NCBI RefSeq assembly: GCF_014197055.1
Contig: NZ_JACIEW010000001.1
Location: 744,001-808,000 of the forward strand
DNA length: 64,000 nt
Origin: Devosia subaequoris
Lineage (GTDB): Bacteria; Pseudomonadota; Alphaproteobacteria; Rhizobiales; Devosiaceae
Reading direction: 5' to 3'
The first letter of the stretch is position 1, and the number at the start of each line of letters is the position of its first letter. Both the position numbers and the translations under genes were made by a program. The notes beneath the pieces are model-generated. The model was not told the origin of the DNA. It worked only from the letters and a program-made list of their open reading frames with translations, and did no database searches. This document shows, piece after piece, positions 10,327 to 28,560 of the stretch.

Positions 10327-10926
10327 GTGCGCAAGATGCCGAGCCCCGACCTGTCTATTCTGATCATTGACGAGAACCGCATCCGCGCCTCGATTATCGA
10401 GGAAGGTCTGCGTGAGGCTGGCTATGCGCGCGTGGCAGTGATCCATGACGTCAACGAGGTAGGGCGCACCATCTCGCAGACCACGCCCGATGTGGTCTTC
10501 ATCGATCTAGAAAACCCCAAGCGCGACACGCTGGAACATTTCTTCTCGCTCAGCCGCGCCATCCAACGCCCCATCGCCATGTTCGTCGACCGCTCGGATG
10601 GCACCATGATCGAGAAGGCGGTCGAGGCGGGGGTCTCCGCCTATGTGGTGGATGGCCTCAAGAAAGAACGCGTCAAGCCGATCCTCGACATGGCGATCTC
10701 TCGCTTCAACGCCTTTTCCCGACTCAGCCGCGAATTGGAGGAGGCGCGCAGCGCGCTTGAGGAGCGCAAGATCGTCGACCAGGCCAAGGGCATCTTGATG
10801 AAGACCAGGGGCCTCTCCGAACCCGAGGCCTATGCGCTGCTGCGCAAGACCGCCATGAACCAGAACCGCCGGTTGATCGACATTGCCCAAAGCCTGATTA
10901 CCGCCGCCAATCTGCTTGGGCCATAG
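10327..10926 (+). CDS. nasT: NasT: ANTAR-domain antiterminator for nitrate assimilation
   Basis: A 199-residue protein with an N-terminal pseudo-receiver (residues 8-125, Asp60 in VVFIDLE), a linking coiled coil (about 125-145) and a C-terminal ANTAR RNA-binding domain (about 140-193: KIVDQAKGILMKTRGLSEPEAYALLRK). ANTAR proteins bind paired hexaloop hairpins in leader RNAs and prevent early termination. The partner NasS is encoded ten bases downstream. Two matching leaders lie in this window, before nrtA and nirB. GTG 10327 is favoured because AAAGG is five bases upstream; ATG 10336 is the alternative. Confidence 0.93.
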   Translation: MRKMPSPDLSILIIDENRIRASIIEEGLREAGYARVAVIHDVNEVGRTISQTTPDVVFIDLENPKRDTLEHFFSLSRAIQRPIAMFVDRSDGTMIEKAVEAGVSAYVVDGLKKERVKPILDMAISRFNAFSRLSRELEEARSALEERKIVDQAKGILMKTRGLSEPEAYALLRKTAMNQNRRLIDIAQSLITAANLLGP

Positions 10927-10936
10927 GAGCGCAGCC

Positions 10937-12145
10937 ATGTCCCTCCCCCATCTTACCGCCGGCTTTCTCCCCCTGCTCGACAGCGCCCTGCTGGTGCTGG
11001 CGCATGAACTGGGCATTGCTGAGGAGGAAGGCTTTACGCTGGGCCTGACCCGCGAATCCTCCTGGGCCAATATCCGGGACCGGACAGCGCTGGGGCATTT
11101 CGATATTGCGTTGGTACTGGCGCCGATGCCGATTGCTGCCAATCTGGGCCTGACCCCCATTGCGACCCCGATGATCGCGCCGGTAATGACCGGCCTGGGC
11201 AACAATGCCATAACCGTCAGCGCGGATCTTTGGGCACGCATGGAGGACGCAGGTGCGCCGGGCGATCTTGGCGCCGGGCCAGCCGGGAAAGCACTGGCGC
11301 AAGTGGTTCGCTCCAAAGGACGAAAACTGCGCTTTGGCGTGGTGCACCAGACCTCCTCGCATAATTACGAGCTGCGCTATTGGCTTGCCGCCAGCGGCAT
11401 CGTGCCGGACAGGGATGTTGAAATCGTCGTACTGCCGCCGCCGCTTCTGCCGGAAGCGCTGGGCGCCGGGAGCCTTGACGGCTACTGCGTGGGCGAACCC
11501 TGGAACAGCGTCGGCGTCGCCAGGTTCGGCGCGCGCATGGCCACGACAAAATCATCGATCTGGCAGTGGAGCCCCGACAAGGCCATCGGCATGCGTTCGG
11601 ACTGGGCCGATGCAAATCCGGACCTCGTGGCCGCCACAATTCGCGCAGTTTATCGCGCCGGCCAATGGTGCCAGGACAGCGCAAACCATTTGCGGGCGGC
11701 CGAGATCATGGCGGGACCAGCCTATCTCAACCAGCCGGTGGAGATTGTCTCGCGCGCCCTTACCGGCCAGATCGATGGTGGGGCGCAGCAGGTGAGCATC
11801 CCGGATTTCTACGTGCCGCATGCCGGGGCCGCCAACTTTCCCTGGAAGAGCCATGGCCTGTGGTACTACAGCCAGATGGTGCGCTGGGGTGAAGTCGGAT
11901 TTAGCACAGCCAGCGCAGCCATCGCCGCCAACACTTTCCGGCCCGATCTCTATCGCGCCGCGCTGGCGCCGCTCGGCGTCGCCGTGCCCGCCCAAGACAT
12001 GCGCATCGATGGCGACCAGGCGGATAAGCATGCCACGCCCGCGACCGGCGGCACGCTCGAATTGGGACCCAATCTGTTCTTCGATGGCCAGATTTTCGAC
12101 CCCGACGCGATCGAATCCTACATCCGCACGCAGGCGGCCGATTAA
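10937..12145 (+). CDS. nasS: NasS: cytosolic nitrate/nitrite sensor
   Basis: A 402-residue protein of the NrtA/CmpA nitrate-binding family that lacks a signal peptide, as expected for NasS rather than for a transporter subunit. In studied proteobacteria NasS holds NasT inactive and releases it when nitrate or nitrite binds. Family segments include [13 protein letters not shown] (about residue 140), GYCVGEPWNSV (about 180) and the C-terminal WYYSQMVRWGE. ATG 10937 has TAGGAG seven bases upstream and follows the nasT stop by ten bases, so the pair is co-expressed. NrtA, encoded next, is a clear relative with an export signal. Confidence 0.92.
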   Translation: MSLPHLTAGFLPLLDSALLVLAHELGIAEEEGFTLGLTRESSWANIRDRTALGHFDIALVLAPMPIAANLGLTPIATPMIAPVMTGLGNNAITVSADLWARMEDAGAPGDLGAGPAGKALAQVVRSKGRKLRFGVVHQTSSHNYELRYWLAASGIVPDRDVEIVVLPPPLLPEALGAGSLDGYCVGEPWNSVGVARFGARMATTKSSIWQWSPDKAIGMRSDWADANPDLVAATIRAVYRAGQWCQDSANHLRAAEIMAGPAYLNQPVEIVSRALTGQIDGGAQQVSIPDFYVPHAGAANFPWKSHGLWYYSQMVRWGEVGFSTASAAIAANTFRPDLYRAALAPLGVAVPAQDMRIDGDQADKHATPATGGTLELGPNLFFDGQIFDPDAIESYIRTQAAD

Positions 12146-12298
12146 GCCTATTTCATGCGCACGCGATTTTTTCTGCACAAGAAATGAACACCACCTCGAC
12201 CGCATGCCGACGCAACGGGCATTTTCCTCGGCGTGGTCGAGACTGTCTATTTTCTCCAATTCATTGATCTAATTGTTCTTTCACCGAAGCGGCTCAAT

Positions 12299-12314
12299 TG
12301 GCACGCTTCGTGCA
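12299..12314 (+). promoter_or_regulatory. Sigma-54 promoter of the nrt operon
   Basis: TGGCAC (12299-12304), five bases, then GTGCA (12310-12314) matches the -24/-12 consensus TGGCAC-N5-TTGCA with one substitution. The invariant GG and GC are correctly spaced. Transcription should start near 12325, just before the leader hairpins. The equivalent element before nirB has identical spacing, which strengthens both calls. It implies control by an enhancer-binding protein, presumably NtrC. Confidence 0.75.
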
Positions 12315-12324
12315 ATGTGTTGAG

Positions 12325-12457
12325 CGGATGAGCTCCTCCCAAGACGGCTCATAACATATCGGCGTCCGATGACGGGCGCTCCAATGGCAAAGCCGCCAAC
12401 TGGCAAGCGTCCGATCACCTGATCGGAGCGCGTGTCCAGTTGGCGGTATTTTCGTTT
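12325..12457 (+). promoter_or_regulatory. NasT-responsive leader RNA and attenuator of nrtA
   Basis: This fills most of the 356-base gap before nrtA. The first hairpin has arms ATGAGC (12328-12333) and GCTCAT (12347-12352). The second has arms 12361-12367 and 12374-12380 with the six-base loop GATGAC. Then comes a long intrinsic terminator: CCGCCAACTGG (12393-12403) pairs perfectly with CCAGTTGGCGG (12436-12446), with an inner 7-bp stem, followed by TATTTTCGTTT. Seventeen bases of the first hairpin (12330-12346) recur identically before nirB. Paired hairpins with a hexaloop followed by a terminator are the known ANTAR target layout, so NasT is expected to allow read-through when nitrate is present. 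The 150 bases upstream of the promoter show nothing clear. Confidence 0.8.
12393..12457 (+). terminator. Intrinsic terminator within the nrt leader
   Basis: The outer stem is 11 bp and perfect (12393-12403 with 12436-12446). The inner stem TCCGATC/GATCGGA has loop ACCT. A T-rich tail (12447-12457) follows. It lies 45 bases before nrtA and inside its transcript, so it must be conditional. Confidence 0.85.
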
Positions 12458-12501
12458 GGAGCTCTCGCAAGGCCGCTGGGTGTCGACACAACACGGAGAC
12501 G

Positions 12502-13914
12502 ATGATGACTGCGACTACCTGCCCCACGCCGCCACGCCGCCGCCTCAACTCGCTGCTTGCCGGCCTTGCCCTGGGTTTGCTCAGCAGCACGGTTGGTAGC
12601 GCCGCCATGCTCGACGTCGAAAAGGACGAACTGAAATTTGGCTTCATCAAGCTCACCGACATGGCGCCGCTCGCTATCGCCTATGAGCTTGGCTATTTCG
12701 AGGATGAAGGGCTCTATGTGACCCTGGAGCCGCAGGCCAACTGGAAGGTCCTGCTCGATGGTGTCATCACCGGCTCGCTCGATGGCGCCCATATGCTCGC
12801 CGGTCAGCCGCTGGCGGCCACAATTGGCTATGGCACCGAAGCCCATATCGTCACCCCCTTCTCCATGGACCTTAATGGTAACGGCATCACCGTCTCCAAT
12901 GCCGTATGGGAGTTGATGAAACCGCATCTGGAGATGGATGCGGACGGCAAGCCGGTGCATCCCATCTCCGCTGCCGCGCTCAAGCCGGTCATCGAAGACT
13001 TCGACATCGAGGGCCGCCCCTTCAACCTGGGCATGGTGTTCCCTGTTTCCACCCACAATTACGAATTGCGCTACTGGCTGGCCGCCGGCGGCATCAGTCC
13101 AGGCTATTACTCGCCCGAAGATGTTTCGGGGCAGATTGCGGCCGACGCCTATCTGTCCGTAACCCCGCCGCCGCAGATGCCCTCGACACTGGAGGCCGGC
13201 ACTATTGACGGCTATGCGGTAGGCGAGCCCTGGAACCAGGCGGCCGTGTTCAAGAAGATCGGGGTGCCGGTCATCACCGACTACGAGATCTGGAAGAACA
13301 ATCCCGAAAAGGTCTTTGGCATTACCGCCGAATTCGCTGAAACCAATCCAAACACCACGCTGGCGATCACCAAGGCGCTGATCCGCGCCGCCAAATGGCT
13401 CGACGAGGATGACAACGCCAACCGCGCCGAAGCGGTCGAAATCCTGTCACGCTCCGAATATGTCGGTGCCGACGCCGAGGTTATCGCCGCATCGATGACC
13501 GGCACGTTTGAGTTTGAAGCCGGCGACGTGCGCGACGTCCCCGACTTCAACGTGTTCTACCGCTACTTTGCCACCTACCCCTATTATTCCGACGCCGTCT
13601 GGTACCTGACCCAGATGCGCCGCTGGGGTCAGGTGGCCGAGGACATGCCGGAAAGCTGGTACGACGAGGTCGCCAAGTCGGTCTACAAGCCGGACATCTA
13701 TCTCGAAGCCGCGCGGCTGCTGGTCGAAGAGGGCTTGGTCGAGGAAGCCGACTTCCCCTGGGACAGCACCGGCTATCGTGAGCCGACAGCCGAGTTCATC
13801 GACGGCGTCACCTATGACGGCACCCAACCCAACGCCTATATCGACAGCCTTCCGATTGGCCTGAAAACCGGCGACAGCGTCGTCGGCGCCGAAGTTGTCG
13901 CTGCCGCCAACTGA
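12502..13914 (+). CDS. nrtA: Nitrate ABC transporter, substrate-binding protein
   Basis: A 470-residue member of the NrtA/CmpA family that binds nitrate (or nitrite) in the periplasm for the NrtB-NrtCD importer. The N terminus has [14 protein letters not shown], a twin-arginine-like signal with cleavage probably near GSAA, as is usual for this family. Conserved segments include LMxG-type [12 protein letters not shown] and [10 protein letters not shown], shared with NasS. Two ATG codons lie in tandem; 12505 has the better distance from GGAG (7 bases) and would shorten the protein by one residue. First gene of nrtA-nrtB-nrtCD, controlled by the leader upstream. Confidence 0.92.
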
Positions 13915-13964
13915 CATGCTCGGGTGGCTGCGCGGCGGCCACCCTCAGCCCTGAGGACTGCATT

Positions 13965-15038
13965 ATGACCCTTGCAAGCGAAGCCCCCGCCACCAGTGGC
14001 CACCAACGGCAGAAGCTGTTTACTGCCATCAACCGTTCCGCCGCCTGGCTCAGCGCATTGGGCCTGGGCTGGCTCGTGCCGCTGCTGAAAATTGCCGCTG
14101 GCGACGATCCGCGCGAGCAGATGGGAGAATTGCGCGACAGCCTGCTCTTTCCCCTGCTCGGCATTGGTGCCTTCCTGCTCGCCTGGGCAGTGCTGGCGCC
14201 ACAAGTGCAGACCTCGCTCGGCGCCATCCCCGGCCCAGCCCAGGTCTGGGAACAGACCGGAGCGCTCTGGCAGGATCACTTGTCTGAACGCGAAAAAGAA
14301 GCGGCCTTTTATGAACGCCAGGAGGTGCGCAACGACGAACTGGTCGCGGCGGGCCGCCAGGACGATGTCAAATGGCGCGGCTATACCGGCAAGCCAACCT
14401 ATCTCGACCAGATCGTGACTTCGCTCAAAACCGTCGGCCTGGGCTTTCTGATCGCCACAATCATCGCCGTGCCGCTTGGTATTGCCTCGGGGCTCAGCAA
14501 GCCATTTAACGGCGCGCTCAATCCGCTGGTGCAATTGTTCAAGCCGGTCTCGCCGTTGGCCTGGCTGCCCATCGTGACCATGGTGGTGTCGGCCCTCTAT
14601 GTGGACGCCAGCGACGCCTTTCCCAAGGCGCTGGTGATCTCGGCGGTCACCGTGACCCTCTGCTCGCTTTGGCCCACGCTCATCAATACCGCTTTGGGGG
14701 TGGCCTCCATCGACAAGGACCTCGTCAATGTGGGCAAGGTGCTGCAGCTTTCGACGCCCACCACCATCACCAAGCTGGTGCTGCCCTCGGCCCTGCCGTT
14801 GATCTTCACAGGGCTGCGTCTGTCGCTTGGTGTTGGCTGGATGGTGCTGATCGCCGCGGAGATGCTGGCGCAGAACCCGGGGCTGGGGAAATTCGTCTGG
14901 GATGAATTCCAGAACGGCTCGTCCTCCTCGCTGGCCCGCATCATCGTGGCCGTGCTCACCATCGGCATTATCGGCTTCCTGCTCGACCGGGTGATGTTCA
15001 CCCTACAGACCGCCTTCACCTTCTCCGGCAAGCGATAG
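13965..15038 (+). CDS. nrtB: Nitrate ABC transporter, permease
   Basis: A 357-residue inner-membrane permease of the NrtB/CmpB/TauC group. A long N-terminal part (to about residue 150) includes two hydrophobic stretches and a charged segment (LSEREKEAAFYERQEV). The typical binding-protein-dependent transport domain follows. Its ATPase-coupling EAA-like loop is near VLPSALPLIFTGLRLSLGVGW (about residue 268 on). Members of this group are often 270-320 residues, so the N-terminal extension makes it long. It sits 50 bases after nrtA and 9 bases before the ATPase gene. Confidence 0.92.
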   Translation: MTLASEAPATSGHQRQKLFTAINRSAAWLSALGLGWLVPLLKIAAGDDPREQMGELRDSLLFPLLGIGAFLLAWAVLAPQVQTSLGAIPGPAQVWEQTGALWQDHLSEREKEAAFYERQEVRNDELVAAGRQDDVKWRGYTGKPTYLDQIVTSLKTVGLGFLIATIIAVPLGIASGLSKPFNGALNPLVQLFKPVSPLAWLPIVTMVVSALYVDASDAFPKALVISAVTVTLCSLWPTLINTALGVASIDKDLVNVGKVLQLSTPTTITKLVLPSALPLIFTGLRLSLGVGWMVLIAAEMLAQNPGLGKFVWDEFQNGSSSSLARIIVAVLTIGIIGFLLDRVMFTLQTAFTFSGKR

Positions 15039-15047
15039 GACCGAAGC

Positions 15048-16796
15048 ATGGCTCCCATTCTCCAGCTCTCCGGCATATCCAAGCATTTTGGCGAAGGCGC
15101 CAAGCGCGTCGATATCCTCAAGGACATCAATCTGGACGTCGAGGATGGCGAATTCGTTGCCATTCTCGGTTTCTCCGGGGCAGGCAAGACCACCCTTATC
15201 TCGATGATGGCGGGCCTGTCAGAGCCTGATATGGGCGGCGTCATCTATCGCGGCAAGGAGATCGACGGCCCCGGCCCCGAGCGCGGCGTCGTCTTTCAAT
15301 CCTATTCGCTGATGCCCTGGCTGAGCGTTTCCGGGAATATCGATCTGGCGGTCAATGCCGTGCACAAAACCAAGTCGCGCGCCGAAAAACTCGCCCTGCG
15401 CAAACACTATGTGGAAATGGTCGGATTGGGCCACGCCGCAGACCGGCGGCCGGCCGAGTTGTCCGGCGGCATGCGCCAGCGCGTTGCCGTTGCCCGGGCG
15501 CTGGCCATGCAACCTGAAATCCTGTTGCTCGACGAACCCCTCTCGGCCCTCGACGCGCTCACGCGGTCCAAGCTGCAGGACGAGTTCGCGCAGATTTCCG
15601 AGGCCGAGAAGAAGACCATAATCCTCATCACCAATGATGTGGATGAGGCCATTCTCCTGGCTGACCGGGTGATCCCGTTGACGCCCGGCCCCGGCGCAAC
15701 GCTTGGTCCGCATTTCAAGGTCGATATTGAGCGGCCGCGCGACCGGGCCGAGCTCAATGGCGATAATCGCTTCATTACCCTGCGGCGCGAGATCACCGAA
15801 TATCTCATGGATGTCGGCGCCAGCCGCAACCCGTCGGGCGAAGCCGACTATGTCCTGCCCAATGTCACGCCCATTGCCCGCGGCAAATCGGCTCGCCTGC
15901 CCAGCGCGTATACCAATGCGGCTGCTGCATCCGGCATGCAGGACGACTATCTGCGTTTTGACGCAGTCTCCAAGGTCTATCCCACGCCCAAGGGGCCGCT
16001 GACCGTAGTGGATGGCTTCGACTTCCAGATGAAGAAGGGCGAATTTATCACCCTGATCGGGCATTCGGGCTGCGGCAAGTCCACCGTGCTGTCGATGGTC
16101 GCGGGACTGAACGAAATTTCCGCCGGCAATATCGTGCTTGATGGCAAGGGCGTTGTCGGGGCCGGTCCCGAGCGGGCCGTGGTGTTTCAGGCTCCGTCCC
16201 TGATGCCCTGGCTGACCGCGCGTGAAAACGTCGCCCTGGGCGTTGATCGCGTTTACCCCACTGCCGGCCCGGCAGAGCGGCGCGACGTGGTCGAATATTA
16301 CCTTAACCGGGTCGGGCTGGGTGACGCCATGCACCGCCCCGCTTCTGAGCTCTCAAATGGCATGAAGCAGCGCGTGGGTATTGCGCGGGCCTTTGCCCTG
16401 TCGCCCAAGCTGCTGCTGCTCGACGAGCCCTTCGGCATGCTCGACAGCATCACCCGTTGGGAATTGCAGGACGTGCTGATGGATGTCTGGGCGCGCACCC
16501 AGGTGACCGCCATTTGTGTCACCCATGACGTCGACGAAGCCATTCTGCTGGCCGACCGGGTGGTGATGATGTCGAACGGACCCAATGCAAGGATCGGCAA
16601 TGTCATGGAGGTGGACCTGCCGCGCCCCCGTTCCCGCAAGGCACTGCTGGCCCACAAGGACTACTACGGCTATCGCGAAGAACTGCTCGATTTCCTCGAA
16701 GCCTATGAGGGGGGCGCCAATCCGGATCAGCAAACGCTGGACCGCATCCGCGCCAAGAGAGCGCGACGCATTGAGAGTGTGGCAGCGGCAGAATAG
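15048..16796 (+). CDS. nrtCD: Nitrate ABC transporter, two ATPase domains fused
   Basis: A 582-residue protein carrying two complete nucleotide-binding domains joined by a linker (about residues 265-300). It replaces the separate NrtC and NrtD chains of cyanobacteria and has no C-terminal binding-protein domain. Domain 1 has Walker A GFSGAGKT (41-48), LSGGMRQR and LLLDEP, but the H-loop His is Asn196 (ITNDVDEA). Domain 2 has GHSGCGKST (338-346), a changed signature LSNGMKQR (435 on), LLLDEP, and an intact His493 (VTHDVDEA). The two sites should therefore differ in hydrolysis, a pattern known from other asymmetric ABC transporters. The last gene of the operon. Confidence 0.92.
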   Translation: MAPILQLSGISKHFGEGAKRVDILKDINLDVEDGEFVAILGFSGAGKTTLISMMAGLSEPDMGGVIYRGKEIDGPGPERGVVFQSYSLMPWLSVSGNIDLAVNAVHKTKSRAEKLALRKHYVEMVGLGHAADRRPAELSGGMRQRVAVARALAMQPEILLLDEPLSALDALTRSKLQDEFAQISEAEKKTIILITNDVDEAILLADRVIPLTPGPGATLGPHFKVDIERPRDRAELNGDNRFITLRREITEYLMDVGASRNPSGEADYVLPNVTPIARGKSARLPSAYTNAAAASGMQDDYLRFDAVSKVYPTPKGPLTVVDGFDFQMKKGEFITLIGHSGCGKSTVLSMVAGLNEISAGNIVLDGKGVVGAGPERAVVFQAPSLMPWLTARENVALGVDRVYPTAGPAERRDVVEYYLNRVGLGDAMHRPASELSNGMKQRVGIARAFALSPKLLLLDEPFGMLDSITRWELQDVLMDVWARTQVTAICVTHDVDEAILLADRVVMMSNGPNARIGNVMEVDLPRPRSRKALLAHKDYYGYREELLDFLEAYEGGANPDQQTLDRIRAKRARRIESVAAAE

Positions 16797-16916
16797 ATGC
16801 CTCTTTTTCGCCCACCGCCGGACGCACTGCACAATTCATAACCTTTGCGTCCGGCAGCCACGTAACAGAGAATATGCAAGTCGCTGTCAACGCAGGATAA
16901 ATATGCCAAAACAGTT

Positions 16917-16932
16917 TGGCACGGTTCCTGCA
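16917..16932 (+). promoter_or_regulatory. Sigma-54 promoter of the nirBD-nasA-cysG operon
   Basis: TGGCAC (16917-16922), five bases, then CTGCA (16928-16932) fits the -24/-12 consensus with one substitution. Start of transcription is expected near 16943, immediately before the leader hairpins. Same geometry as the nrt promoter. Confidence 0.75.
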
Positions 16933-16942
16933 ACATCGTACC

Positions 16943-17072
16943 CGACAGAGCTCCTCCCAAGACGCTCTTCGACATAACCGACGTCCAAGGTTGGGCGTCA
17001 ACAGGCAAGGCCGCCAACAGGTGCGACGTGATCCCATGCGGATCGTCGGCGCGTCGGTTGGCGGTCTTTTTT
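16943..17072 (+). promoter_or_regulatory. NasT-responsive leader RNA and attenuator of nirB
   Basis: This is most of the 302-base gap before nirB. Hairpin 1 has arms AGAGC (16947-16951) and GCTCT (16964-16968), extended by CGA/TCG. Hairpin 2 is a 7-bp stem (16980-16986 with 16993-16999) closing the hexaloop AAGGTT, with A at loop position 1 and G at position 4, the two bases conserved in ANTAR target loops. The terminator follows at 17011. The 17 bases 16948-16964 are identical to 12330-12346 in the nrt leader. The region 16797-16916 upstream shows nothing definite. Confidence 0.82.
17011..17072 (+). terminator. Intrinsic terminator within the nir leader
   Basis: CCGCCAAC (17011-17018) pairs with GTTGGCGG (17057-17064). 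Inner pairing GATCC/GGATC and CGAC/GTCG extends the stem, and TCTTTTTT follows. It ends 26 bases before nirB, so it must be bypassed for expression. Confidence 0.87.
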
Positions 17073-17098
17073 GTTTTCCAGATTGGAGCCCCAAGCGG

Positions 17099-19543
17099 AT
17101 GGAAAAACTGGTTGTCATAGGTGCAGGGATGGCTTCTGGCCGCGCCCTGGAACACATTTTCGAGGAAGCCCCGGGCCGGTTCGACGTCACGCTGTTCGGC
17201 GCCGAGCCGCGTGGCAATTACAATCGGCTGATGCTCTCCCCGGTCCTGGCCGGAGAGAAGGCATATGAGCAGATCATCACCCATGACGCTGAGTGGTATC
17301 GGGAGCACGGCGTGCAAACCCGGTTCGGCGAAACCGTCACCGGTATCGATCGAGCTCGCAAGGTGGTCATCTCGGCGGGCGGGGAAACGCCTTATGACAA
17401 GCTGATCGTCGCCACCGGCTCGGCACCCTTTATCATTCCCCTGCCCGGCAAGGATCTGCCCGGCGTGATGGCCTTCCGCGATCTCGATGACGTCAACCGT
17501 ATGGTCGAGGTCTCCAAGCGCACTGGCTCCAAAGCCGTGGTGATTGGCGGGGGCCTGCTGGGCCTCGAGGCCGCTGCCGCGCTGAATGCCCGCGGCATGG
17601 AAGTGGTGGTGCTGCACCTGATGGGCCATGTGATGGAACGACAGCTTGATCCGGCTGCCGGCTATCTCCTGCAGCGCGATCTGGAAGCCCGCGGCATCAA
17701 GGTACACTGCAAGGCGCAGACCAAGGCCATTCTCGGTGAAGAGCGGGTCGAGGCCGTAGCGCTGGAAGATGGCACCGTTTATGGCGCCGATATCGTGGTG
17801 ATGGCCGTCGGCATCCGCCCCGAGACGCGCATCGCGGTCGATGCGGGCCTGCATGTCGAGCGCGGCATCGTGGTCAATGACCAGATGGTCACCTCGGACC
17901 CCGATGTGCTGGCGCTGGGCGAATGCGTCGAGCACGAAAAGATCGTCTATGGCCTGGTTGCCCCGCTCTATGACCAGGCCAAAATCCTCGCCAAGACGCT
18001 GGCCAAGGTCGACGCTGCCTTCCGCCCGGTGCAGACCGCGACCCAACTCAAGGTGACCGGCGTTTCGGTCTATTCGGCCGGCGATTTCGCCGATGCCGAG
18101 GACCGCGAGGAGATCGTGCTGCGAGATGCCAATTCAGGCATCTACAAGCGCATTGTGCTCAAGGAGGATCGCGTTATCGGCGCCGTGCTCTACGGTGAAA
18201 CCGCAGACGGCCCCTGGTTCTTCGACATGATCCGCAAGGGCACCGATACGCGGGACATGCGCGCCACACTTATCTTTGGTCAGGCCTACCAGGGGGGAGC
18301 CGCGCTGGACCCTATGGCGGCCGTTGCAGCCTTGCCGGATGATGCAGAAATCTGCGGCTGCAACGGTGTCTGTAAATCTGCGATCACCGGCACGATCGCA
18401 TCCAAGGGCCTGACCGATCTCGATGGCGTGCGCGCCCATACCAAGGCCTCGGCCTCGTGTGGCTCGTGCACCCATCTGGTCGAAAAGCTCATGGCCATCA
18501 CTCTGGGCGACAGCTACAACCCGGCTGCCGTCAAACCGATGTGTCCCTGCACCGAACATGACCACGGCACCGTCCGTCGCCTGATCGTGGCCAAAGAACT
18601 CAAATCCATTCCCGCGATCATGCAGGAATTGGAGTGGAAGACCAGTTGCGGCTGCGCCAAGTGCCGCCCGGCCCTCAACTACTATCTGGTGGCCGAATGG
18701 CCAGGTGAATATGAGGACGATAACCAGTCCCGATTCATCAATGAACGCGTGCACGCCAATATCCAGAAGGATGGCACGTATTCGGTGGTGCCGCGCATGT
18801 GGGGCGGCATGACCAACCCCAAGGAATTGCGCGCCATTGCCGATGTGGCCGACAAGTTCGCCATCCCCGCAGTGAAAGTCACCGGCGGGCAGCGTATCGA
18901 CCTGCTCGGCGTCAAGAAGGAAGACCTGCCCGGCGTCTGGGCCGATCTCAACGCCGCCGGCATGGTATCGGGCGCCGCCTATGCCAAGGGGCTGCGCACG
19001 GTCAAAACCTGCGTCGGTTCGGACTGGTGCCGCTTTGGCACCCAGGATTCGACCGGCCTAGGCGTGCGGCTTGAAAAGTTCATGTGGGGCGCCTGGACCC
19101 CGGCCAAGGTCAAGCTCGCGGTCTCAGGCTGCCCACGCAACTGCGCGGAAGCCACCTGCAAGGATATCGGCGTGATCTGCGTGGATTCGGGCTACGACAT
19201 CCAATTCGCAGGGGCTGCGGGCCTCGACATCAAGGGCACAGAATTGCTCTGCCATGCCGATACCGAGGACGAGGCGCTGGAGATCATCGTGGCCCTCACC
19301 CAGCTCTATCGCGAGCAGGGGCACTATCTCGAGCGCATCTACAAATGGGCCAAGCGCGTCGGCAATGACAGCATCAAGGCTGCGGTGGTCGACGACCTCG
19401 ACAAGCGCAAGCTCTATTACGACCGCTTCGTTTATGCCCAGCAATTCGCCCAGGTCGACCCCTGGGAAGAACGCGTCAATGGCAAGGACGCCCATGAATT
19501 CGCCGCCATGGCCGAATTCGGGCTTCCGGTGGCAGCGGAGTGA
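17099..19543 (+). CDS. nirB: Assimilatory nitrite reductase, large subunit
   Basis: An 814-residue cytosolic flavoprotein that, with NirD, reduces nitrite to ammonium using NAD(P)H. In order it has an FAD/NAD(P)H-binding half (VVIGAGMASG at the start, VVIGGGLLGLEAA near 150), two BFD-type [2Fe-2S] segments (from Cys419, ICGCNGVC, and about 480-527 ending CGCAKC), and a siroheme/[4Fe-4S] domain with Cys638, Cys644, Cys678 and Cys682 (C-x5-C, then C-x3-C). ATG 17099 has GGAG ten bases upstream and lies just past the attenuator. Upstream in-frame codons fall within the terminator and are not used. It needs siroheme, made by CysG at the operon end. Confidence 0.96.
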   Translation: MEKLVVIGAGMASGRALEHIFEEAPGRFDVTLFGAEPRGNYNRLMLSPVLAGEKAYEQIITHDAEWYREHGVQTRFGETVTGIDRARKVVISAGGETPYDKLIVATGSAPFIIPLPGKDLPGVMAFRDLDDVNRMVEVSKRTGSKAVVIGGGLLGLEAAAALNARGMEVVVLHLMGHVMERQLDPAAGYLLQRDLEARGIKVHCKAQTKAILGEERVEAVALEDGTVYGADIVVMAVGIRPETRIAVDAGLHVERGIVVNDQMVTSDPDVLALGECVEHEKIVYGLVAPLYDQAKILAKTLAKVDAAFRPVQTATQLKVTGVSVYSAGDFADAEDREEIVLRDANSGIYKRIVLKEDRVIGAVLYGETADGPWFFDMIRKGTDTRDMRATLIFGQAYQGGAALDPMAAVAALPDDAEICGCNGVCKSAITGTIASKGLTDLDGVRAHTKASASCGSCTHLVEKLMAITLGDSYNPAAVKPMCPCTEHDHGTVRRLIVAKELKSIPAIMQELEWKTSCGCAKCRPALNYYLVAEWPGEYEDDNQSRFINERVHANIQKDGTYSVVPRMWGGMTNPKELRAIADVADKFAIPAVKVTGGQRIDLLGVKKEDLPGVWADLNAAGMVSGAAYAKGLRTVKTCVGSDWCRFGTQDSTGLGVRLEKFMWGAWTPAKVKLAVSGCPRNCAEATCKDIGVICVDSGYDIQFAGAAGLDIKGTELLCHADTEDEALEIIVALTQLYREQGHYLERIYKWAKRVGNDSIKAAVVDDLDKRKLYYDRFVYAQQFAQVDPWEERVNGKDAHEFAAMAEFGLPVAAE

Positions 19544-27058: not shown

Positions 27059-28560
<1,502 letters not shown>

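Follow-up and report, generated by a model that had tools for sequence, protein, structure and literature searches.

A separately conserved 5' stem-loop in the putative NasT-controlled leaders of Devosia nitrate assimilation operons

The leader before nirB in Devosia subaequoris, at positions 16943-17072 of the window (the whole stretch of 64,000 nucleotides that was analysed), is very probably a NasT-controlled attenuator of the ANTAR type that also carries an accessory, separately conserved 5' stem-loop, which we call HP1. In our model, HP1 stands at the 5' end predicted for a sigma54 transcript, as a third element; it is neither P1 nor P2 of the ANTAR motif, because P1 corresponds to hairpin 2 of the leader and P2 overlaps the 5' arm of the terminator. 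The same model has the HP1 loop as nearly fixed, largely unpaired and anti-Shine-Dalgarno-like. The accessible papers describe ANTAR leaders as two hairpins plus a terminator; the leaders here add a third stem-loop at the 5' end, with a 12-base loop that hardly varies and whose conservation is apparently not explained by NasT recognition. The computation shows how the leaders are built, how far they are conserved and distributed, that their stems covary, and that both kinds of leader occur together with one NasT. From the sequence, we infer the start site, termination, NasT binding, control by NasS, accumulation of the RNA and any role of the loop.

All features described here lie on the forward strand. 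The order of the locus is nasT, a nasS-like gene, the first leader, nrtA, nrtB, nrtCD, the second leader, nirB, and then nirD-, nasA- and cysG-like frames, of which the names nirD and cysG were assigned by eye. The nasT gene (10327-10926) encodes a receiver and ANTAR protein (PF00072 and PF03861), and this is the one ANTAR protein found in the genome by both a NasT-like search and an ANTAR-domain search. It is followed by a nitrate-sensor gene of the NMT1-like family (10916-12145; PF13379), which we take to be nasS from its place after nasT and from general knowledge of such loci. The nitrate ABC transporter genes nrtA, nrtB and nrtCD (12502-16796) lie 3' of the first leader and match PF13379, TIGR01183 (below its cut-off) and TIGR01184 (above its cut-off). 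The nirB gene, for the nitrite reductase large subunit (17099-19543), matches TIGR02374 above the cut-off with 855 bits and also has the Pfam domains. A -24/-12 promoter of the sigma54 type, recognised by the known consensus, precedes each leader: TGGCACGGTTCCTGCA at 16917-16932 before nirB and TGGCACGCTTCGTGCA at 12299-12314 before nrtA. By the usual spacing of such promoters to +1, the transcripts are predicted to begin at about 16943-16945 and at about 12325, respectively.

HP1 of the nirB leader (16947-16968) has the stem AGAGC (16947-16951)/GCTCT (16964-16968) around the loop TCCTCCCAAGAC at 16952-16963, and is supported by sequence, predicted fold, loop conservation and stem covariation. 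Its counterpart in the nrtA leader (12328-12352), supported by sequence, fold and stem covariation, has the stem ATGAGC (12328-12333)/GCTCAT (12347-12352) around TCCTCCCAAGACG. Next in the nirB leader comes P1, GACGTCC[AAGGTT]GGGCGTC (16980-16999), whose hexaloop has A at position 1 and G at position 4 and which covaries among related leaders, followed by P2, GGC[AAGGCC]GCC (17004-17015), with an A1/G4 hexaloop and covariation likewise. The nrtA leader has P1, GGCGTCC[GATGAC]GGGCGCT, at 12361-12380, with G at both positions 1 and 4 of the loop, and P2, GGC[AAAGCC]GCC, at 12386-12397, seen in sequence and fold. Intrinsic terminators are predicted from fold and sequence at 17007-17077, with a stem at 17007-17068 and the tract TTTTTTGTTTT at 17067-17077, and at 12392-12452, with a stem at 12392-12447 and a short T run to 12452. 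P2 overlaps the 5' arm of the predicted terminator stem in both leaders, the stem starting at 17007 before nirB and at 12392 before nrtA. By eye, the terminator tail of related leaders is often TTTTTTGTTTT(T), as at 17067-17077. The linker between P1 and P2 is five bases long in the nrtA leader (12381-12385) and four in the nirB leader (17000-17003), the latter just under the natural range of 5-12 given for eut leaders in the available text of PMC3369931, where a linker of 3 or 14 was harmful in one test. The 5' segments, HP1 with P1, are not strikingly stable, as 19 of 200 and 14 of 200 shuffled versions fold as well.

The initial annotation had drawn attention to a run of 17 identical bases, GAGCTCCTCCCAAGACG, and we find it at 16948-16964 and 12330-12346, enclosed by HP1 of the nirB and the nrtA leader, respectively, with both copies inside NasT-type leaders and 4618 bases apart. 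The hexaloop AAGGTT is likewise present as described, at 16987-16992 with closing pairs CC/GG, both terminators open with GCCGCCAAC, and the proposal that the two operons use a single leader design is supported, as is its view that the generic two-hexaloop model leaves the 17-base element unaccounted for. Two of its assignments need to be changed. The first hairpin is not a member of the hexaloop pair, since it lacks a hexaloop with A1 and G4; the pair is made up of hairpin 2 as P1 and, as P2, a mini-hairpin extending into the 5' arm of the terminator. The conserved element itself stands, with the correction that the unit is not the 17 bases but the 12-base loop with two closing G-C pairs, GC[UCCUCCCAAGAC]GC; the outer stem letters of HP1 vary from leader to leader.

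Taken by itself, the repeat is within chance for the window, which holds three further pairs of direct exact repeats of at least 17 bases. These are 17 to 19 bases long and start at 27349/48476, 36330/48093 and 36336/59016. What lifts the 17-base repeat above chance is its conservation among relatives, not its being repeated: the element is kept before nas genes within Devosia and its near relatives, which was the question the initial annotation had posed. We also considered a recent duplication and rejected it. Across seven species, orthologous leaders are more alike (mean identity 0.86 for nrtA and 0.79 for nirB) than the nrtA and nirB leaders within one genome (0.71), so the identity of the two copies in the window is old and has been maintained.

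Related leaders were sought with two models. The first, R1, was built from both leaders of the window with their HP1 letters included; at E<=0.1 it matched in 53 of the 75 genus genomes, and at E<=0.01 in 30 of the 397 genomes of the order. As R1 is biased toward loop-bearing leaders, the counts below come from R2, which was built from the 71 distinct P1/P2 segments of the R1 matches and leaves HP1 out. In these 71 segments, 99.2% of cells are paired, and changes on both sides of a pair number 37 against 9.1 in shuffles, a value that none of 500 shuffles reached; most of this covariation comes from P1, as P2 has three pairs and two of them are invariant, and the shuffles, here and for HP1, leave the relatedness among sequences in place. 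R2 matched in 71 of 136 family genomes at E<=0.01. There were 110 matches in the family, of which 103 had E<=1e-3 and came from 69 of the 136 genomes by hand count; the seven with E above 1e-3 were left uncounted. Leaders were extracted with a pattern requiring A or G at position 1 and G at position 4 of the P1 loop, which gave 102 leaders (104 rows, two of them false), and the nrtA leader of the window was added by hand to make 103. This equals the R2 total at E<=1e-3, so hardly any leader can have been lost. Dropped before counting were four matches that seem to fall within coding sequence (L119, L125, L126 and L127) and, in L058, a further match to the pattern.

The P1 loop has A1/G4 in 96 of the 102 family leaders and G1/G4 in the other six, and a G at position 4 is common to all extracted leaders, as the extraction pattern demands. 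The nrtA P1 hexaloop of the window (12368-12373) also begins with G, and so do the nrtA loops of six related species. That all seven species have G there fits the EutV structure as described in the accessible text of PMC8934654, where G4 touches the protein and A1 does not. A sigma54-type promoter stands at the same place before 97 of the 102 family leaders and before the nrtA leader of the window as well; the criterion was GG-N10-GC with at least 8 of 12 letters of the known consensus, and at least 9 were found. Three of the leaders (L109, L110 and L113, in genomes G029, G088 and G006) precede a cysG-like gene after nasTS, and in them P1 begins about five bases past the predicted start, which leaves no space for HP1.

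We called a leader loop-bearing if it had CTCCC-N2-G between the predicted +1 and P1. By this definition a loop of the UCCUCCCAAGAC type occurs in 46 of 103 leaders (45 of the 97 sigma54-preceded ones and the nrtA leader of the window), from 35 genomes and with 43 distinct sequences. The letters inside the definition are constant by construction; the remaining UCCUCCCAAGAC positions are conserved in 41 to 45 of the 46, and the linker positions past the stem in about half. Counted from the predicted start, the core of the loop begins between +10 and +13 in all 46, and at +12 in 31 of them. Across six stem pairs in the 43 distinct sequences, 88% of cells are paired, which none of 1000 shuffles reached, with the stem register picked for each sequence so as to maximise pairing. 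Changes on both sides occur in 28 cells against 8.5 in shuffles (0 of 1000), while the weaker measure of further pair types gives 9 (6.9 in shuffles; 27 of 1000 got as high). The UCCUCCC of the loop is predicted to be mostly unpaired (mean 0.67 in 45 leaders, compared with about 0.3 for the RNA as a whole); in this prediction the 3' end of the RNA was set too far downstream for some leaders, which leaves HP1 unaffected.

Leaders with the loop (45 of 45) open with a predicted hairpin just after the predicted +1, and so do most of those without it: 45 of the 52 other sigma54-preceded leaders have a plain predicted 5' hairpin near +1, and the remaining seven have only 4 to 8 bases ahead of P1. 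The commonest loop among the 52 is UUCG, found in 13. A 5' hairpin is thus the rule in these leaders, with the fixed loop as an elaboration specific to one lineage. In L098 (G073) and L180 (G445), both with a plain hairpin, CTCCC-R-AG lies just upstream of the predicted +1; neither was taken as loop-bearing, and the motif in them is either a matter of chance or a relic of the loop.

The loop has a narrow distribution. Among 75 genomes of the genus, the 13-mer CTCCTCCCAAGAC occurs 35 times, 33 of them in nas leaders with P1 and P2, and the reversed 13-mer pattern has no occurrence in the same genomes. The two occurrences elsewhere (L212 and L213) lie in open frames, with no sigma54-type promoter visible. 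Scanning a genome collection of 84,980 species for the promoter together with the 13-mer gave 23 stretches, labelled Devosia or Pelagibacterium, both Devosiaceae in the Hyphomicrobiales, with the exception of two from MAGs labelled only to order or class. Within the family, the loop is found in the genus of the window, in group g28 and in one genome of g145, and the 18 leaders that R1 matched outside the family, from 17 genomes, all lack its pattern. Ten genomes have the loop in two leaders, and with the genome of the window there are eleven. A looser pattern search that allowed three mismatches was uninformative.

Leaders with and without the loop coexist in 17 genomes, and in 14 of these the loop-less leader also has a sigma54-type promoter. 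In the other three (G001, G002 and G024), it has no recognisable one. L117, L182 and L101 are the extra P1/P2 leaders without such a promoter in these genomes, and L101 and L117 precede a nasA-like nitrate reductase gene. Each of the 38 genomes searched, all 17 mixed ones included, yielded exactly one NasT-like protein (E<=1e-20); with the ANTAR domain as query, 14 of the 17 gave one protein above the cut-off, and G026, G027 and G029 gave two or three. Because 17 genomes mix both kinds of leader, 14 of them with a single ANTAR protein, it seems that NasT can hardly require the HP1 loop, unless the loop-less leaders are not its targets; every leader is taken as a NasT target from its sequence. 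The proposal in the initial annotation that the 17 bases are a specific NasT contact is therefore unlikely as far as a requirement is concerned. The loop may still help NasT in some leaders, and a folding role, which the annotation had offered as the other option, is possible.

On our reading, the nirB leader would work as follows. Under nitrogen limitation, sigma54 polymerase would start at about 16943-16945. Where nitrate is absent, the leader would fold into the terminator at 17007-17068, and the transcript would end after about 130 bases. With nitrate or nitrite present, NasS would free NasT, as is known for the control of NasT by NasS in Paracoccus from the portion of PMC3795266 available. 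The freed NasT would hold the hexaloops of P1 (16980-16999) and P2 (17004-17015), and, because the 3' arm of P2 is part of the 5' arm of the terminator, a P2 held by NasT would give read-through into nirB. HP1 (16947-16968) would lie upstream of this switch and be dispensable for NasT recognition as such. Most likely, the near-general 5' hairpin protects or insulates the 5' end, and we read the loop UCCUCCCAAGAC of Devosia and its close relatives as a putative binding site for a partner other than NasT, either an RNA or a protein.

Several explanations of the loop itself compete, and none has better than a modest claim. The one we tentatively rank highest is that HP1 stabilises the 5' end and that its loop either binds a general RNA-binding protein or chaperone or forms an RNase-resistant fold. 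The regularity with which both kinds of leader open with a predicted hairpin (45 of 45 and 45 of 52) favours it, as does UUCG, the commonest loop among the loop-less leaders (13 of 52), since UUCG loops are stable. Yet twelve nearly fixed loop bases are not needed for stability, and plain hairpins manage without them. Somewhat less probable, in our judgement, is that the terminated leader of about 130 bases is a trans-acting small RNA, with a protected 5' hairpin, an exposed anti-Shine-Dalgarno loop and a terminator tail, that silences other mRNAs in the manner of the NfeR1 and AbcR RNAs. It would be made under nitrogen limitation without nitrate, and the predicted open loop on variable stems resembles the ar14/NfeR1 signature as it appears in the accessible part of PMC10746234, a fixed, unpaired CCUCCUCCC on differing stems. 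There are precedents in Sinorhizobium, where terminated leaders act as or become small RNAs (PMC9373788), and in Listeria for a leader-derived small RNA (PMC11394854), as far as the available text of both papers goes. A faint hint also comes from ntrB, at whose start 9 of 15 loop-bearing genomes have a GGAGG-type match, against 0 of 6 that lack the loop, among 22 ntrC loci of which one (L231) gave no ntrB frame and two (L225 and L233, the latter among the nine) have a doubtful choice of start. Against this, most of the nine genomes are close relatives, GGAGG is an ordinary ribosome-binding site, and the matches stop short of the rest of the loop. Nor are CTTGGGAGG-N(3-10)-ATG sites enriched in a telling way: the 30 loop-bearing genomes of the genus have 114 of them and the remaining 45 have 142 (p 0.11 by rank test); in the genome of the window, four of nine CTTGGGAGG sites outside the leaders fall at start regions, with no nitrogen gene among them by eye. 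The conserved AAGAC, too, exceeds a Shine-Dalgarno complement. The fuller proposal, that the Devosiaceae NasT leader doubles as a nitrate-silenced small RNA, made by sigma54 polymerase in nitrogen starvation, switched off by NasT read-through and acting in trans through its loop, we hold to be slightly less probable again. If it is true, a single RNA would tell other mRNAs, or an RNA-binding protein, that the cell is short of nitrogen and has no nitrate.

Next in rank is the reading of the initial annotation, that the loop is an additional NasT contact or folding aid, which we think rather doubtful: the 13-mer is nearly confined to leaders with P1 and P2 (33 of 35 in the genus) and its place is fixed, but 17 genomes with one NasT each (14 with one ANTAR protein in all) mix both leader types, 52 sigma54-preceded leaders of the family do without the loop, and HP1 has no A1/G4 hexaloop. 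It is unlikely that the fixed bases matter at the level of the DNA or of the initially transcribed sequence, through promoter escape, pausing or a DNA-binding site near +10 to +22. The near-constant distance to the sigma54 promoter (+12 in 31 of 46 and +10 to +13 in 46 of 46) would suit such a role, whereas the compensating changes in the stem (A-U, U-A and G-C at pair 5) point to an RNA hairpin. Very unlikely, too, is a control of translation in which the loop would pair with the operon's own ribosome-binding site. Both leaders of the window have GGAG after the terminator, with 5 to 7 complementary bases by eye (GGAGC and GGAGCTC), but the mean complementary run is 4.5 with the loop and 4.7 without it (p 0.25; 43 and 52 leaders), and the mean duplex of -10.4 kcal/mol with the loop is, if anything, weaker than the -12.0 kcal/mol without it (p 0.006). 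We give the least credence to a leader peptide, a nine-codon frame at 12328-12354 of the nrtA leader (ATG AGC TCC TCC CAA GAC GGC TCA TAA, or MSSSQDGS). An ATG is in register in 16 of the 46 loop-bearing leaders, with a stop before P1 in 13, while the other 30, the nirB leader included, have no ATG, no Shine-Dalgarno site was seen, and it is letters rather than codons that are conserved. Two further candidates were discarded on inspection by eye: a boxA-like reading of GCUCUUCGACA, as GGCUCAU, with compensation in the 5' arm, occurs in many leaders, and a pseudoknot between CCCAA and UUGGG of P1, which is present in the nirB leader and absent in the nrtA leader.

The coexistence of leaders with and without the loop in the same cell, under one NasT, offers a natural comparison for roles of attenuators beyond attenuation, and it also bears on whether released leader RNAs act as small RNAs of nitrogen status.

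Rfam gave nothing above the gathering score in 14 loci, five of which have leaders, and in the window, positions 11000-18000 gave four matches, all far below their gathering scores. Our literature search, which covered titles and displayed abstracts, mostly of open papers, returned none on Devosia NasT leaders or on a third conserved hairpin in such leaders; two papers that contain both Devosia and NasT seem, from their titles, to be unrelated. The closest relatives in general build are the ANTAR leaders of eut, nasF and amiE (Ramesh et al. 2012, PMC3369931). As set out in the accessible text of PMC3369931 and PMC3369936, the motif comprises two hexaloop hairpins, each with A1 and G4: P1, and P2, which overlaps the terminator on its 5' side. 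In the portion of PMC3369931 available, these leaders share with ours P1, a short linker and a P2 that overlaps the terminator, and they too have an ANTAR protein encoded nearby and nitrogen genes downstream. The Devosia leaders differ from those described there in a conserved stem-loop upstream of P1, in a P1 loop that opens with G rather than A before nrtA, and in a sigma54 promoter immediately upstream.

The nasA leader of Paracoccus denitrificans is similar in arrangement, with nasTS followed by a hairpin leader and a nitrate assimilation operon, and NasT binds this leader RNA, according to the available text of PMC3795266 and PMC5424462. The Paracoccus work differs in describing two hairpins, HI and HII, both of them mutated. 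In Bradyrhizobium, NasT hairpins are found in few NasT-dependent genes, as far as the accessible part of PMC6759348 describes them. For the loop of HP1, the nearest likeness is to the NfeR1/ar14 and AbcR small RNAs, which, as presented in the available text of PMC10746234, have fixed, CCUCC-rich anti-Shine-Dalgarno letters that are unpaired on freely varying stems, and which also belong to a context of nitrogen stress; the NfeR1/ar14 RNAs repress ntrB in Sinorhizobium. From what the same text describes, ar14/NfeR1 has three hairpins, each with an unpaired CCUCCUCCC, whereas the Devosia leader has one such loop, with UCCUCCC, and, unlike those RNAs, carries it in the leader of an operon, together with a sigma54 promoter and a putative NasT switch.
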